From Streptomyces sp. NBC_01255 (lineage in GTDB: Bacteria > Actinomycetota > Actinomycetes > Streptomycetales > Streptomycetaceae), in assembly GCF_036226445.1 (NCBI RefSeq), contig NZ_CP108474.1:5828001-5892000 (forward strand): DNA of 64,000 bases, written 5' to 3'. Both the position numbers and the translations under genes were made by a program. The notes under the pieces are model-generated. The model searched no databases and was not told the origin of the DNA. It saw only the letters and a program-made list of their open reading frames with translations. This document shows positions 34,083-44,789 of this stretch, piece by piece; within the stretch, counting starts at the first letter, position 1; every line of letters begins with the position of its first letter.

Positions 34083-34112
34083 GCGACGGGAACAGGACAT
34101 CGAGCGACATCG

Positions 34113-34137
34113 AGGGCCCGGCGGCACGCCGGGCCCT
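34113..34137 (+). terminator. Terminator after the deaminase-like gene
   Basis: A perfect 11-bp stem (AGGGCCCGGCG / CGCCGGGCCCT) with a three-base loop is followed by TGTGTGTTTGTG. It marks the left boundary of the surface-protein locus. Confidence 0.85.
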
Positions 34138-34291
34138 TGTGTGTTTGTGAAGGATCACCGCATCTTCTCTTGCCTTCCCTGGCGGTCTGCGTCTCAATGA
34201 GCATCGGTTCGCCCGACGGACCGTCAGATATTCGCCATTCACGCAGTGTCCGCACCCCTGCGTTCGTCATCGGAAGGGGTTCGAACTCGCC

Positions 34292-34771
34292 ATGAGAAGC
34301 AGAAGCACCTTAGGGACGGTCGCGGTACTCACCGGAGCGCTCGCCGCCGCCGGACTCGCCTTCGCCCCGACGGCCGGGGCCGTCGCACCGGGGTCGGCCA
34401 CGGCGTCGTACGACTGTGGCAGCTGGGGCGGCGGCGTCGCCAACATCACCGCGACCCAGAGCGGCACGTCCGCGACCATGACGATCAGCACGGCCGTCAC
34501 GACGCCGATCGCGGTCGGCGCCGACCAGATCAACGCCACGCTGACGCTGGCCAAGGCGGGCGGCGGCACCCGGGTCTTCACCGGGAAGAAGAACCCGGCG
34601 GTCGGCGCCGGGCAGCCCGTCACCATCGGCCCCCTCAGCGGGACCGTGGCCTCGGGCGACAGCCTCAACTCGTACTTCGCGGGTGTCGCACTCAAGATGG
34701 TGATCTTCGGAGTGACGGTGAACTGTGATGCCGTGACCTCGCAGACGCCGGGCCCGTTCGTCTTCAGCTGA
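34292..34771 (+). CDS. Small secreted beta-domain protein, first gene of the WxL-like locus
   Basis: The 159-residue protein has a clear signal peptide (MRSRSTLGTVAVLTGALAAA, cleavage probably after AGA at about 29). The mature part is all beta with one cysteine at each end (DCGSW and VNCDAV), suggesting a terminal disulfide. It shares its plan, including TGxKKNP and a late Ser-Gly-Asp turn, with residues about 45-190 of the next gene product. The two therefore carry the same secreted domain alone and fused. GGAAGGGG precedes the ATG. No known family name comes to mind. A terminator follows, so it may be transcribed alone. Confidence 0.82.
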   Translation: MRSRSTLGTVAVLTGALAAAGLAFAPTAGAVAPGSATASYDCGSWGGGVANITATQSGTSATMTISTAVTTPIAVGADQINATLTLAKAGGGTRVFTGKKNPAVGAGQPVTIGPLSGTVASGDSLNSYFAGVALKMVIFGVTVNCDAVTSQTPGPFVFS

Positions 34772-34788
34772 GCCCTGCCCCACCCCTG

Positions 34789-34815
34789 ACCGGTGTCGCC
34801 GACGGCGGCACCGGT
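34789..34815 (+). terminator. Terminator after the small secreted protein gene
   Basis: The interrupted hairpin ACCGGTG...CACCGGT has an inner CGCC/GGCG extension and a three-base loop, 17 bases after the stop. Confidence 0.7.
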
Positions 34816-34962
34816 CTCTGGCGTGACCTGGGGAAATGCCAGGAAAGGGCTGATCTTGACAGAATCTGATGGGTCATCAGTCGATGGTTTTCGATTCCAT
34901 TGACTTCTCTCGGCCCGCAGCCGTCAATGGCGCCCTCTCATCCCTCAGGAGGGGGCCCACAC

Positions 34963-36297
34963 ATGGCACTCACCCGATCCCGGGCGGCGACCCGAAGACG
35001 GCGTTGGACCGCCGTCCTCGGCGCGACCGCCCTCGCGGTCGCCGCAGGCGGCGCCATCGCCGCTCCGGCCCACGCGACCGCCGGCTCCACCCCGGTGGAA
35101 TTCCAGACGCGCTGCGTCCCGCCGCCGATCGCCGGCATCCCGCCCATCACGGGCACCACGACGGCCGACATCACGGTCGACAAAGCCGCGCCGAAGGTCG
35201 GCGACACGGTGACGGTGACCTACACGATCACCAAGCCCGCCGCGTCGAACCCCGTCGACCTCGCGCTCCCGGCCGACATCATGACCCCGAGCGGCAAGGT
35301 CGTCCTCGGCGGCGCCCAGACCGGCGCGGTCACCGTCACGGGACCCAAGAAGAACCCGCCCATCCCGGCCAAGGGCTCCTTCCCGGCCTTCTCCATGACC
35401 GGCACCTTCACGGTCACCGAGGCCGGATCGATCACCCTCTCGCCGGGCGACTACAACATCCACACCAGCTACATCATGGAGCTGGACACCCCCTGTACGG
35501 TGCTCAACCCGCCCGCCCCGGTCTCCGAGACGGTCGTCGCGAGCCCCGTGACCAGCCCCAACGCCCGCGCATTGTCGCTCGACAGCGCCACCGGCGACCC
35601 CGGGGTGCGGGTGACCGTCAACGGCTCCAAGTTCACCCCGCTCACCGAGGTCACCGTCGTCGGCCGGGCCGGCGGCGCGGAGACCGCGGACAAGATGACC
35701 GTCACGACCGACAGCGAGGGCGGGTTCGCCGCCCGCCTCAAGGTCAACGACCCGGCGACCACCGGGATCGTGGCGTACGAGGGCGCGGCCTGGGACCCGG
35801 AGAAGGGCGCCGGACCCGCCGCGTACAAGGTCGTCGTCCCGGCACCGCCGAACAGTCAGACGATCACCGCGGCCGTCACGGCGGGCGAGCTCTCCATGAG
35901 CCAGGCCGGGGACGCCGTCGAACTGACCTCGGTCGACTTCGGTCAGGGCGGCGCGGCCACCGGCGACCTGAAGACGGTGACGGTCAAGGACTTCCGCGGC
36001 GGCCCCGCGGGCTGGTCCCTCACCGGCAAGGTCACCGACTTCACCGGACCCGGCGGCGCCATCGGCGCCGGGAGCCTCAGCTGGACCCCTGCCTGCACCG
36101 CCAAGGCCGGCAGCCCCAGCACCTGCGCGGCCGGCTCGGCCGGTCCCGTCGGCAGCGGCGGCGCGACCCTCGCCTCCACGCCGAACGGCACCCTCACGGG
36201 CGGCGAGTTCACCGTCGACGCCAAGCTCTCCCTCGACGTCCCGGCGTTCACCGCGCCCGGCTCGTACGCGGGCGTGCTGACGCTGACCCTGTCCTGA
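34963..36297 (+). CDS. Secreted protein with WxL-like C-terminal domain
   Basis: The 444-residue secreted protein starts at ATG 34963 behind AGGAGGGGG. The signal peptide ends near APAHA (about 38). An N-terminal beta-domain (about 45-190) resembles the preceding gene product. A middle Ig/Big-like domain follows (about 195-290, GDPGVRVTVNGSKFTPLTEV). The C-terminal 140 residues match the layout of Firmicute WxL surface domains: LTSVDFGQ, LKTVTVKDFRGGPAGWSL with the first W-x-L at Trp351, KVTDFTGPGG, and a final strand SYAGVLTLTLS. The second canonical W-x-L is replaced by L-x-L there. WxL domains bind peptidoglycan non-covalently. The DUF916 gene follows. The assignment is by pattern, not search. 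Confidence 0.8.
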   Translation: MALTRSRAATRRRRWTAVLGATALAVAAGGAIAAPAHATAGSTPVEFQTRCVPPPIAGIPPITGTTTADITVDKAAPKVGDTVTVTYTITKPAASNPVDLALPADIMTPSGKVVLGGAQTGAVTVTGPKKNPPIPAKGSFPAFSMTGTFTVTEAGSITLSPGDYNIHTSYIMELDTPCTVLNPPAPVSETVVASPVTSPNARALSLDSATGDPGVRVTVNGSKFTPLTEVTVVGRAGGAETADKMTVTTDSEGGFAARLKVNDPATTGIVAYEGAAWDPEKGAGPAAYKVVVPAPPNSQTITAAVTAGELSMSQAGDAVELTSVDFGQGGAATGDLKTVTVKDFRGGPAGWSLTGKVTDFTGPGGAIGAGSLSWTPACTAKAGSPSTCAAGSAGPVGSGGATLASTPNGTLTGGEFTVDAKLSLDVPAFTAPGSYAGVLTLTLS

Positions 36298-36304
36298 CCA
36301 CCCG

Positions 36305-36338
36305 GCGGGCCGGCCGGGCGACCGCCCGGCCGGCCCGC
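36305..36338 (+). terminator. Strong intra-operon hairpin between the WxL-like and DUF916 genes
   Basis: A perfect 15-bp all-GC stem (GCGGGCCGGCCGGGC / GCCCGGCCGGCCCGC) with a four-base loop begins eight bases after the WxL-like stop and ends 25 bases before the DUF916 start. There is no T-tract. It could attenuate transcription or protect the upstream mRNA, setting protein ratios within the operon. Confidence 0.65.
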
Positions 36339-36363
36339 TCCGCACCCGGGGGTTCTCCGCACT

Positions 36364-37323
36364 GTGCGCAGCAAGCCGTACGTCCTCCTCCTGAGCGCGG
36401 TCGCCGCGCTCCTCGTGCTCCTCGGCGCCGCGCCCCGGGCCACCGCCGCCGAGAACGGCGAGTGGGCCGTCTACCCGGCCGCCGCCAAGCCCGGCAGCCG
36501 CCCGTACTACTACCTCTCCGTCGACCCCGGCACCTCGCTCACCGAACGCGTCACCGTCACCAACAAGACGGCCGCCCCGCTCACCTTCCGGCTGTACGGC
36601 GCCGACGCCTACAACACCGACCGGGACGGCGGCTTCGCCATCCGGACGCAGGCGGAGAAGCAGACCGGGGCCGGTGCCTGGATCAAGCCCGAGCGGACCC
36701 GGGTCACCGTCCCGCCGCGCTCCGCCGTCACCGTCCCGTACACGCTGACCGTCCCCGCCGACGCCGACCCCGGCGACCACCCCGGCGCTCTCGTCGCCCT
36801 CGACGAGCGGATCAGCCCGAGCGGACAGGGCTCCGTCGCCGTCGGCGTCCAGCGCGCGGTCGGCGCCCGTGTCTACCTCCGGGTCAACGGGCCGACCGTC
36901 CCCGCCCTCGCCGTGGAGGACGTCACCCTCGAACAGGACCGGCCGCTCGTCCCCGGCGTCGGCGGGAGCAGCGCCCTCGTCACGTACACCCTCCACAACC
37001 GGGGGAACGTCACCCTCAATCCCAAGGTCGTCCTCAAGGCCGAGGGGCTCTTCGGTCGTACCCTCCTCGACCGCGACCTGGCAAAGGTGCCGTCCGAGCT
37101 GCTGCCCCGGCAGAAGATCCGGCTCACCGAGCGGTGGAGCGGATCCCCGCAGTTCGACTGGGGTGACGTGACCCTCACGGCCAGCGCGAAGGACGTGAAG
37201 GAGAGCGGCACGGTGTCCTTCATGGCCCTGCCCTGGCTCGCCGCCGGGACCCTCCTCGTCGCGGCCGTGACCGGATTCCTCGGCCTCCGGATGCGCCGCC
37301 GCCGGGCCCTGAACGAGGCCTGA
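36364..37323 (+). CDS. DUF916 membrane-anchored protein (WxL-interacting protein type)
   Basis: The 319-residue protein begins at GTG 36364 (MRSKPYVLLLSAVAALLVLL; signal ending near TAAEN). Residues about 31-150 fit DUF916, the peptidoglycan-binding half of WxL-interacting proteins (EWAVYPAAAKPGSRPYYYLS, SLTERVTVTNKTAAPLTFRLYG). The second beta-domain (about 155-270) corresponds to the host-binding half. A C-terminal membrane helix (about 280-302) and a basic tail RMRRRRALNEA anchor it. In Firmicutes such proteins pair with WxL proteins in surface complexes, and the gene order here is the same. Its partner is likely the preceding gene product. Confidence 0.85.
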   Translation: MRSKPYVLLLSAVAALLVLLGAAPRATAAENGEWAVYPAAAKPGSRPYYYLSVDPGTSLTERVTVTNKTAAPLTFRLYGADAYNTDRDGGFAIRTQAEKQTGAGAWIKPERTRVTVPPRSAVTVPYTLTVPADADPGDHPGALVALDERISPSGQGSVAVGVQRAVGARVYLRVNGPTVPALAVEDVTLEQDRPLVPGVGGSSALVTYTLHNRGNVTLNPKVVLKAEGLFGRTLLDRDLAKVPSELLPRQKIRLTERWSGSPQFDWGDVTLTASAKDVKESGTVSFMALPWLAAGTLLVAAVTGFLGLRMRRRRALNEA

Positions 37324-37374: not shown

Positions 37375-38325
37375 ATGGCCTCCATGAGCGCTCGCAACCA
37401 AGAAACCGAAGCCGTCCACCGGGCCGGCTTCGCCTGCTTCGTCGGCCGCCCCAACGCGGGCAAGTCCACCCTCACGAACGCTCTGGTCGGTCAGAAGGTG
37501 GCCATCACCTCGAACCGGCCGCAGACCACACGGCACACCGTCCGCGGCATCGTGCACCGCCCGGACGCGCAGCTGATCCTGGTCGACACCCCCGGCCTCC
37601 ACAAGCCGCGCACCCTCCTCGGCGAGCGGCTCAACGACGTCGTGCGCACCACCTGGGCCGAGGTCGACGTGATCGGCTTCTGCCTGCCCGCCGACCAGAA
37701 GCTCGGCCCCGGCGACAAGTTCATCGTCAAGGAACTCGCCGCGATCAAGAAGACCCCGAAGGTCGCGATCATCACCAAGACCGACCTGGTCGACTCCAAG
37801 ACGCTCGCCGAGCAGCTCATCGCGATCGACCAGCTCGGCAAGGAGCTGGGCTTCGAGTGGCAGCAGATCGTCCCGGTCTCGGCCGTCGGCGACAAGCAGG
37901 TCCAGCTCGTCGCCGACCTGCTCGTCCCGATGCTTCCGGAGTCCCCGCCGCTCTACCCGGAGGGCGACCTCACGGACGAGCCGGAGCAGGTCATGGTCGC
38001 GGAGCTGATCCGCGAGGCCGCGCTCGAAGGCGTACGCGACGAGCTGCCGCACTCGATCGCGGTGGTCGTCGAGGAGATGATCCCGCGCGAGAACCGCCCG
38101 GCGGACCGGCCGCTGCTCGACATCCACGCGAACGTGTACATCGAGCGCCCCAGCCAGAAGGGCATCATCATCGGCCCGAAGGGCAGCCGCCTCAAGGAGG
38201 TCGGCATGAAGTCCCGCAAGCACATCGAGGCGCTCCTCGGCACCCCGGTCTTCCTCGACCTCCACGTGAAGGTCGCGAAGGACTGGCAGCGGGATCCCAA
38301 GCAGCTGCGGAAGCTGGGTTTCTAG
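37375..38325 (+). CDS. era: GTPase Era
   Basis: The 316-residue GTPase binds 16S rRNA and assists 30S assembly. The G1 motif is GRPNAGKST (residues 24-32), G2 lies in RPQTTRHT, G3 is DTPGLHKP and G4 is TKTDLVD. The C-terminal KH domain has IERPSQKGIIIGPKGSRLKE. Start at ATG 37375; ATG 37384 is an equally plausible alternative three codons in. Normally this gene directly follows corC/cda, but here 6.5 kb of accessory genes intervene. Confidence 0.96.
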   Translation: MASMSARNQETEAVHRAGFACFVGRPNAGKSTLTNALVGQKVAITSNRPQTTRHTVRGIVHRPDAQLILVDTPGLHKPRTLLGERLNDVVRTTWAEVDVIGFCLPADQKLGPGDKFIVKELAAIKKTPKVAIITKTDLVDSKTLAEQLIAIDQLGKELGFEWQQIVPVSAVGDKQVQLVADLLVPMLPESPPLYPEGDLTDEPEQVMVAELIREAALEGVRDELPHSIAVVVEEMIPRENRPADRPLLDIHANVYIERPSQKGIIIGPKGSRLKEVGMKSRKHIEALLGTPVFLDLHVKVAKDWQRDPKQLRKLGF

Positions 38326-43379: not shown

Positions 43380-44789
43380 ATGCGCACGACCGCTGCTGTG
43401 GCCGCTGTCCTCGCGGTGACCGGCACCGCCCTCGCCTGGGCCCCCGCCGTCTCCGCCGCCCCTGCCACGTCGTGCGCGACGCATCCGCTCGGCACGGCCG
43501 GCCTCTACGCCGAGTTCGTCGAGAAGGACTCCGTCCGCCACTCCGACTCCGAGGGCGCGGTCGCGGTCGGCGGCGACGCCACCTTCGGCGACCCGAAGCA
43601 GCCCTCCGGGTTCTCGATCGGCCACAAGCTCACCGGCGCCGACCTCGCGAAACTGCCCGGCGGCCACAGCCTCGTCGTCGGCGGCACGCTGTACGCGAAC
43701 CAGGTCGTCCTGGACAACGGCACCGGCATCGCCGGCAAGGTCGTCGACCGCTCCACCCCCGGTCAGGGCTTCGGCGTCGACGGCGACAAGGTCAAGGAGG
43801 GCGCCTCCCCGACCTCCCCCGTCGACTTCGCGAAGGAGTTCGCGGACCTGCGCGCCCTCTCCACCGGCTGGGCGGGCACCGCGCCCAACGGCACGGTGGC
43901 CGGCGACAAGGACGCCCAGGGCCTGTTCCTCACCGGTACGAGCACCGAGCTCAACGTCTTCGCGGTGGACGCCGCCGACCTGGAGAAGGCCCGGGCGATC
44001 ACGCTCAAGGTCCCGGCCGGCTCCTCCACCCTCGTGAACGTCCTCGGCGCCTCGTACGACATGAGCAAGTCCGCCACCTACGGCGTCTACTACCAGGGCG
44101 CGGACGGCACGGCCCCGGTCATCGACGACTACAACCTGGCGAGCGACGAGTTCCGCCAGATCCGCTCCAAGCTGCTGTGGAACTTCCCGCAGGCCGAGAG
44201 CGTGAAGAAGAACTACACCTCCTGGCCGGGCACGATCCTCGCGCCGAACGCCGCCGTCGAGATGGGCGGGCAGAACATCGGCCCCGGCCACGTCAACGGC
44301 TCCGTCATCGCCGAGTCCCTGAAGACCGTCCCCGGCGCCGAGACCCACCAGATGAACTTCACGGGCTGCCTCCCGAAGGAGACCACCCCCGGCGAGGTCG
44401 TCACCCCGGAGCCGCCGACGCCGACCGAGACGGCCGTCCCCACCCCGCCCGCGACCCCCGAGCCGACCCCGAGCGAGGGCGGCGGGACGCCCACGACCCC
44501 CGCGACCCCGGAGACCCCGGGCGCCTCCGAGACGCCTGGGACCTCCGCGTCCCCGTCGACGCCCGCCGGCACCCCCGAGACGTCGGAGACCCCGGGCGGC
44601 CCCGGAACCCCCGACGAGGCCACCACCGCCCCGGCCACGCCCTCGACGGCGCCGTCCGCCACCCCGGAGGGTGATCTCGCGACGACCGGTTCGGCCATCG
44701 GACCCGGCACGATCGGTGCCGCGGCGGCCGCCGTCCTCGTCGGCGGAGGCTTCCTGGCCTTCGCAAAGCGCCGCCGCCGCGCCTCCTGA
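43380..44789 (+). CDS. Choice-of-anchor A family surface protein with LAXTG sortase signal
   Basis: The 469-residue secreted protein has a signal peptide (about 1-26), then a choice-of-anchor A domain (about 30-330) with the typical opening GLYAEFVEKDSVRHSDSEGA and AVGGDATFG. A Pro/Thr/Glu-rich wall-spanning stalk follows (about 335-430). The sorting signal is LATTG at residues 433-437, a hydrophobic helix and KRRRRAS. LAXTG is the signal used by class E sortases, which anchor chaplins in Streptomyces. No sortase gene is in the window. A Crp-like site lies upstream. Confidence 0.9.
   Translation: MRTTAAVAAVLAVTGTALAWAPAVSAAPATSCATHPLGTAGLYAEFVEKDSVRHSDSEGAVAVGGDATFGDPKQPSGFSIGHKLTGADLAKLPGGHSLVVGGTLYANQVVLDNGTGIAGKVVDRSTPGQGFGVDGDKVKEGASPTSPVDFAKEFADLRALSTGWAGTAPNGTVAGDKDAQGLFLTGTSTELNVFAVDAADLEKARAITLKVPAGSSTLVNVLGASYDMSKSATYGVYYQGADGTAPVIDDYNLASDEFRQIRSKLLWNFPQAESVKKNYTSWPGTILAPNAAVEMGGQNIGPGHVNGSVIAESLKTVPGAETHQMNFTGCLPKETTPGEVVTPEPPTPTETAVPTPPATPEPTPSEGGGTPTTPATPETPGASETPGTSASPSTPAGTPETSETPGGPGTPDEATTAPATPSTAPSATPEGDLATTGSAIGPGTIGAAAAAVLVGGGFLAFAKRRRRAS

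Follow-up and report, generated by a model that had tools for sequence, protein, structure and literature searches.

In the csc gene clusters of Lactobacillales and Bacillales, a gene coding for a WxL-interacting protein (WxLIP) adjoins another one that encodes a secreted protein ending in a WxL-type domain (families PF13731, PF06030 and DUF3324, the last of which we take to be PF11797), and the same arrangement has been found in the actinomycete locus analyzed here. According to PMC9772566, WxL systems occur mainly in Firmicutes (over 91% of 938 WxL sequences), and the distal of their motifs is given in passages of PMC5817068 as YXXX(L/I/V)TWXLXXXP. A literature search on WxL or DUF916 in Streptomyces and actinobacteria, carried out in open-licence PMC, has returned no title on actinomycete WxL systems among those listed. 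The locus consists of three open reading frames (ORF1, ORF2 and ORF3) located at positions 34292-37323 of a window of 64,000 nucleotides from Streptomyces sp. NBC_01255 (NZ_CP108474.1, positions 5,828,001 to 5,892,000). A preliminary description made from the letters of this window had interpreted these genes as a WxL/WxLIP-like surface locus, an interpretation that is supported by the present analysis.

A WxL-like protein and its WxLIP partner

ORF3 (36364-37323, + strand, GTG start) encodes a protein of 319 residues with a signal peptide, two immunoglobulin (Ig)-like domains and a C-terminal hydrophobic stretch followed by RRRR, which was modelled as a helix (residues 469-496 of a joined-chain model of ORF2 and ORF3) and probably crosses the membrane. 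Residues 41-143 (36484-36792, + strand) match the DUF916/WxLIP peptidoglycan-binding domain PF06030 with 33.0 bits, over the curated cut-off of 27.3. In the structural model, the two Ig-like domains are arranged as in WxLIP, and the fold match to the structures 9i25 and 9i1y covers both of them. These two structures were identified by their entry and molecule titles; no paper describing them was found in the literature search, and the passages of PMC12537917 do not describe them. Automatic annotation names ORF3 homologues 'WxL protein peptidoglycan domain-containing'. ORF3 is a WxLIP, and its earlier description as a membrane-anchored DUF916 protein has been borne out by the profile match and the C-terminal helix. 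The lack of any DUF916 or WxL-like fold had been named as the outcome that would speak against the proposal, and for ORF3 both the WxLIP profile and the fold have been found.

ORF2 (34963-36297, + strand), with an ATG preceded by GGAGG, encodes a secreted three-domain protein of 444 residues that comprises, all on the + strand, an N domain (residues 38-190, 35074-35532), a middle Ig-like domain (about residues 200-293, 35560-35841) and a WxL-like domain (residues 296-444, 35848-36294). The first two domains are well modelled (block means of 80-94 for the most part, with some of 69-77, and of 80-90 in the middle domain), the middle one giving a weak match to the NCBIfam PGS Ig-like family (E 0.0032, below cut-off). 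The W-x-L layout that had been noticed in the C-terminal domain is present, with Trp351 (36013-36015) heading the proximal W-S-L and the C-terminus YAGVLTLTLS placing Leu441 (36283-36285) in the distal Trp position, so that residues 441-443 (36283-36291) read L-T-L and the protein ends one residue later.

The search with the Pfam WxL model (PF13731) gave a divided answer, with the window protein under the cut-off and orthologues and relatives matching. Within the ORF2 family, it is matched at E<=0.05 by 42 of 57 members, a set that does not include the window protein, and in 150 genomes of the genus 18 match at E<=0.001 and 10 over the cut-off, some of these 10 being proteins other than ORF2 orthologues. 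In genomes G012 and G400 the matching copies adjoin ORF3 orthologues, the cut-off being reached only with frame neighbours. When an alignment of 28 diverse WxL-like domains (A6) was prepared, 18 of them matched PF13731 at E<=0.01 (best 2e-7), and the top match of A6 among PDB sequences was the WxL chain of 9i25, with a non-significant E of 0.11. Judged by its sequence, the C-terminal domain of ORF2 is related to WxL domains, an assignment based on the orthologue matches, on the class-wide family of domains found beside WxLIPs and on this top PDB match. Since ORF2 stays under the Pfam cut-off and lacks the second motif, both of them defining for WxL proteins, the domain is called here WxL-like, though it is a WxL homologue. 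Some ORF2 homologues are already labelled 'WxL domain-containing' by automatic annotation.

The pairing is conserved. An ORF2-alignment scan, of which the best 80 of 217 relatives were kept, yielded 80 orthologous loci, whose records are Streptomyces by title with one titled Microtetraspora, and in these loci picked by ORF2 an ORF3-type gene lies 3' of ORF2 on the same strand in all 80 cases. ORF2 and ORF3 travel together, and the independent scattering of the genes that had been named as a second outcome against the proposal was not observed for this pair.

Spread of the pair and absence of the distal tryptophan

The ORF2-family profile was run over the fetched loci and duplicates were removed by their last 100 residues, leaving 120 distinct domains (89 ORF2-like and 31 diverged). 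The first Trp was present in 120/120, where it precedes x-L in 96 domains, x-V in 19, x-A in 3 and x-I in 2, and the position of the second one was occupied by Leu (101 domains), Ile (8), Phe (4), Glu (3), His (2), Val (1) or Gln (1). Another 59 domains from 50 further loci (genomes partly overlapping) showed the first Trp in 58, with one gap, and the second in none, and all 59 end 0-3 residues before the stop codon. The profiles were built from actinomycete sequences and the first-Trp count is therefore favoured by selection; the second-Trp count should be less biased, because a Trp in one column would hardly block detection. In these alignments, a missing distal Trp is the rule among the actinomycete domains examined.

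At E<=0.001, the Pfam WxL model matches 10 of 296 genomes of the phylum and the A6 profile at least 80 of 246 genomes of the class, which is a different, narrower sample, the rates being not strictly comparable. The A6 matches extend over at least 32 of 103 genera, with at least 74 of the 246 genomes at 1e-10 and at least 13 domains in one genome, all of these counts being lower bounds because 15 candidates per genome were scored. The 50 further loci had been chosen with A6 (the best match of 30 genomes plus 20 mostly weaker matches picked by hand), and a WxLIP was found on the same strand within 1.5 kb in 40 of them. Six of the 50 (L192, L193, L194, L195, L201 and L217) had already contributed sequences to A6, mostly after an initial detection through WxLIP, and without them the count is 35/44.

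A Pfam scan of 16 tail-bearing proteins, some of them cut at the end of their stretch, revealed recognised cargo in 9 and none in 7. The cargo includes FG-GAP repeats, HtaA, GH18, M64 peptidase, GDPD, metallophosphatase, purple acid phosphatase type (two proteins) and fn3. Varied cargo carried on one C-terminal tail makes this tail look like an anchoring module. The FG-GAP protein belongs to a second WxL-like/WxLIP pair of the genome studied here (L002, G000:C1:421936-425226, about 423 kb from one end of C1), in which the PF06030 match is of 21.8 bits, below the cut-off.

The tail of ORF2 resembles a wall-binding domain known from gut bacteria, and as related pairs are common in actinomycetes, this poorly known mode of surface attachment seems to extend far outside the group from which it was originally described. 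Four findings are new within the searches made: such tails occur across the class, the distal Trp is uniformly absent from them, their enzyme cargo varies, and the trio keeps its place before era. A wider proposal, which we put forward tentatively and with slightly less than even confidence, is that actinomycetes hold a large, mostly unrecognised single-Trp branch of WxL/WxLIP systems that would serve as a general non-covalent alternative to sortase for keeping enzymes and binding modules on the cell, a strand donated by the membrane-held WxLIP completing the Ig sandwich of the tail, as has been predicted for the WxLIP of Firmicutes. If the tails do anchor proteins, enzymes such as phosphatases and chitinases that would pass for freely secreted ones could remain attached to the cell, new names would be required for the 'beta-xylosidase' records discussed below, and a natural branch that manages without the distal Trp would make its role directly testable.

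The N domain, the proposed complex and its rivals

ORF1 (34292-34771, + strand, 159 residues) encodes a small secreted single-domain protein, with a likely signal peptide followed by about 128 residues in which no surface anchor was seen, and it is present in 72 of the 80 loci. Cys42 and Cys145 are invariant in 21 ORF1 sequences, and Cys51 and Cys178 of the ORF2 N domain in 57 members. The domain that both proteins had been said to share was undetectable by direct hhalign comparison (probability 6.1%) but was recovered through intermediate proteins (95.5% and 97.4%), and these relatives support the proposal that one building block occurs both by itself and in fused form. The intermediates are encoded in a second cluster of the same genome, locus B (L083, 6493-10674 of G000:C1:5260000-5276000, near 5.27 Mb), where the N domain recurs beside a WxLIP-like gene, one protein with an LPKTG end carrying a single copy of it and another with an LAETG end carrying two (motifs by eye; the Pfam anchor match of the LPKTG protein is below cut-off, with 17.9 of 20 bits). 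It seems from these tails that the same outer module is attached through a WxL-like domain in the trio and probably by sortase in locus B. As a guess, the N-domain cargo could be a surface ligand-binding or adhesion module. Locus B also encodes a protein of 372 residues whose neocarzinostatin-family match is barely above cut-off (26 of 25 bits). In the window itself, positions 43380-44789 encode a secreted protein of 469 residues with LATTG, a hydrophobic stretch and RRRR at its C-terminus, by eye a likely sortase substrate.

The trio probably encodes a non-covalent surface display complex. The C-terminal helix of ORF3 would fix this protein in the cytoplasmic membrane, so that its two Ig-like WxLIP domains are presented at the peptidoglycan, and ORF2 would be secreted and would dock through its WxL-like domain on ORF3 and peptidoglycan, with the N and middle Ig domains facing outward as cargo. 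ORF1, which is related to the N domain but secreted in free form, may be its competitor, its binding partner or a component of a joint assembly. It was observed computationally that ORF3 is homologous to WxLIP, that the tail of ORF2 is related to WxL domains and lies at the C-terminus, that the gene pairing is conserved and that the cargo varies; docking, peptidoglycan binding and the order of assembly would proceed by analogy with the Enterococcus faecium system.

Several results weigh against this display complex. ORF2 reaches only 13.8 bits with PF13731 (E 0.06; 17.1 for the tail alone; cut-off 25), the distal WxL motif is absent from it and a second Trp occurs in 0/120 domains. Its WxL-like domain is poorly modelled (block means 31-72 over residues 301-444). 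At E<=0.1, none of 15 ORF3 homologues gave a match to DUF3324, and the family matched by their second domain was DUF7507. In the joined-chain model of ORF2 and ORF3, built to probe docking, the predicted template modelling score (pTM) stayed at 0.42; the blocks of ORF2 residues 331-440 rose in it from 49-72 to 56-87, a rise that cannot be ascribed to ORF3, as the underlying alignment was a different one (19 vs 45 rows), the ORF3 loop presumed to insert stayed low (model residues 263-268 <50), and docking was not seen in this model. In 10 of the 50 tail-bearing loci no WxLIP was found on the strand within 1.5 kb, five of them short stretches of 3.4-3.5 kb (L192, L196, L198, L199 and L202) and five of 5.3-7.5 kb (L227, L228, L232, L237 and L239), L227 having a WxLIP on the opposite strand. 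Conversely, eight loci with a WxLIP-like gene have no neighbour recognised by the ORF2-tail profile, seven of them of the locus-B type (L077, L078, L082, L083, L089, L090 and L091) plus L087.

A rather unlikely alternative is that ORF3 acts mainly as a membrane-held, chaperone-like donor. One of its strands would fill the open Ig sandwich of the ORF2 tail, in the way in which periplasmic chaperones act on pilins, and ORF2 would then be passed to the wall or built into a polymer. ORF2 and ORF3 resemble pilins and chaperones of the chaperone-usher systems at the fold level, a likeness that is not specific; they differ from these systems in that no usher was recognised, ORF3 is membrane-anchored and the organism is Gram-positive. 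It is unlikely that the trio constitutes a ligand-uptake station in which the N domains bind a small molecule, an ion or heme and ORF1 shuttles it to the wall-held ORF2, as happens in other relays at the surface. One domain does exist in free and in anchored form both in the trio and in locus B, an N-terminal HtaA domain (E 5e-42) precedes the WxL-like tail of a protein from genome G224, and DUF916 genes are mentioned in passing, in passages of PMC12537917, among the neighbours of proposed metal-binding proteins; however, the Pfam matches listed include no HtaA or NEAT domain in members of the ORF2 family or in the proteins of locus B, the trio includes no transporter and no ligand residues were pinpointed. 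A secreted glycosidase with an incidental C-terminal likeness to WxL is highly improbable, given that the name 'beta-xylosidase' carried by most of 120 listed ORF2 homologues (P0121-P0240, of 744) and two marginal matches among 57 family members (GH123, N-terminal, E 0.0021; CBM_6, E 0.031) stand against the lack of any Pfam or NCBIfam glycosidase family in ORF2 at E<=1, a PDB profile search that returned only ribosomal L18 rows (E 0.25 or worse) and the constant pairing with a WxLIP gene (80/80 loci). With no glycosidase domain found in ORF2, the name looks like a misannotation that has been propagated.

Genomic setting and comparison with known systems

ORF1, ORF2 and ORF3 are consecutive + strand genes, all frames being present with many Streptomyces homologues, some of those listed being from S. 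venezuelae, and the trio is under purifying selection. When compared with 7 of the 80 orthologous loci, the ratio of nonsynonymous to synonymous substitution rates was 0.20-0.43 for ORF1, 0.19-0.49 for ORF2, 0.33-0.41 for ORF3 and 0.05-0.14 for era. The placement given by the preliminary description, between a cda-like gene and era, is correct and conserved, although the label 'cda-like' has little behind it, the NCBIfam profile for cytidine deaminase giving 16 of 216 bits at E 0.0094. The era gene (37375-38325, + strand; NF000908, 357 bits) starts 51 nt 3' of ORF3 and is downstream in 78 of the 80 loci, L170 and L183 stopping at a contig end. The cda-like gene is upstream on the same strand in 76/80; L125 begins at a contig end, on the upstream side of ORF1, L163 covers only 2.4 kb, and in L170 and L174 no cda-like gene is present in 8 kb. 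L174 is rearranged: the trio and era stay together, and the cda-like gene lies with CBS and ybeY-type genes on the opposite strand, downstream of era. Some ORF3 relative is found in 104 of 150 genomes of the genus, with at least 58% identity in 41 (our own count among the matches listed). The conserved neighbourhood indicates that the locus is inherited together with it, though missing from many species. The ten widest ORF3-era gaps measure 1.9-6.8 kb (L148, L152, L160, L172, L177, L178, L181, L185, L189 and L190) and several more are of about 1.8 kb; in the comparable locus L075, an ammonium-transporter-like frame is read by eye near this gap.

The claim that terminators bound the locus holds on one side. 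A terminator-like hairpin (34111-34139, + strand, 13 pairs, T-rich tail) lies 3' of the cda-like gene, and the scan of this region gave 2 sites of this kind vs 1.0 +- 1.1 in shuffles, but nothing comparable to this hairpin was found in the 51-nt ORF3-era gap and the strong repeats are internal. These are an inverted repeat in the ORF1-ORF2 gap (34788-34816) and a perfect one of 16 bp in the ORF2-ORF3 gap (36305-36338), the latter not being general. Stems of at least 10 pairs occur in 45/72 loci after ORF1, 15/80 after ORF2 and 3/78 after ORF3, vs 1/80 in a control with one shuffle per ORF2-ORF3 gap.

Compared with Lactobacillales and Bacillales clusters, the trio lacks the distal Trp and has a single WxL-like protein instead of two. 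The cluster definition of Hassan 2023 comprises one WxLIP and at least two WxL proteins within four genes of it; among the window frames searched, the domain was found only in ORF2, and ORF1 gave a probability of 1.5% against it. The second domain of ORF3 is missed by the DUF3324 profile, and the NQIDKxxxYFDLK stretch (Hassan 2023) is absent from ORF3, which by eye has AKPGSRPYYYLSV there, with only the aromatic-L part similar. The cargo is also different, an uncharacterised N domain accompanied by a small partner, ORF1, without a recognisable WxL domain. As in those clusters, the proximal W-x-L and the YxxxLT.xL tail are kept, and ORF3 has two Ig-like domains, a terminal helix and the fold of 9i25 and 9i1y. 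With the sortase-type Streptomyces surface proteins of locus B, the trio shares the N domain and the clustering with a WxLIP-like gene, and in place of their LPKTG/LAETG tails (by eye) ORF2 ends in a WxL-like tail.
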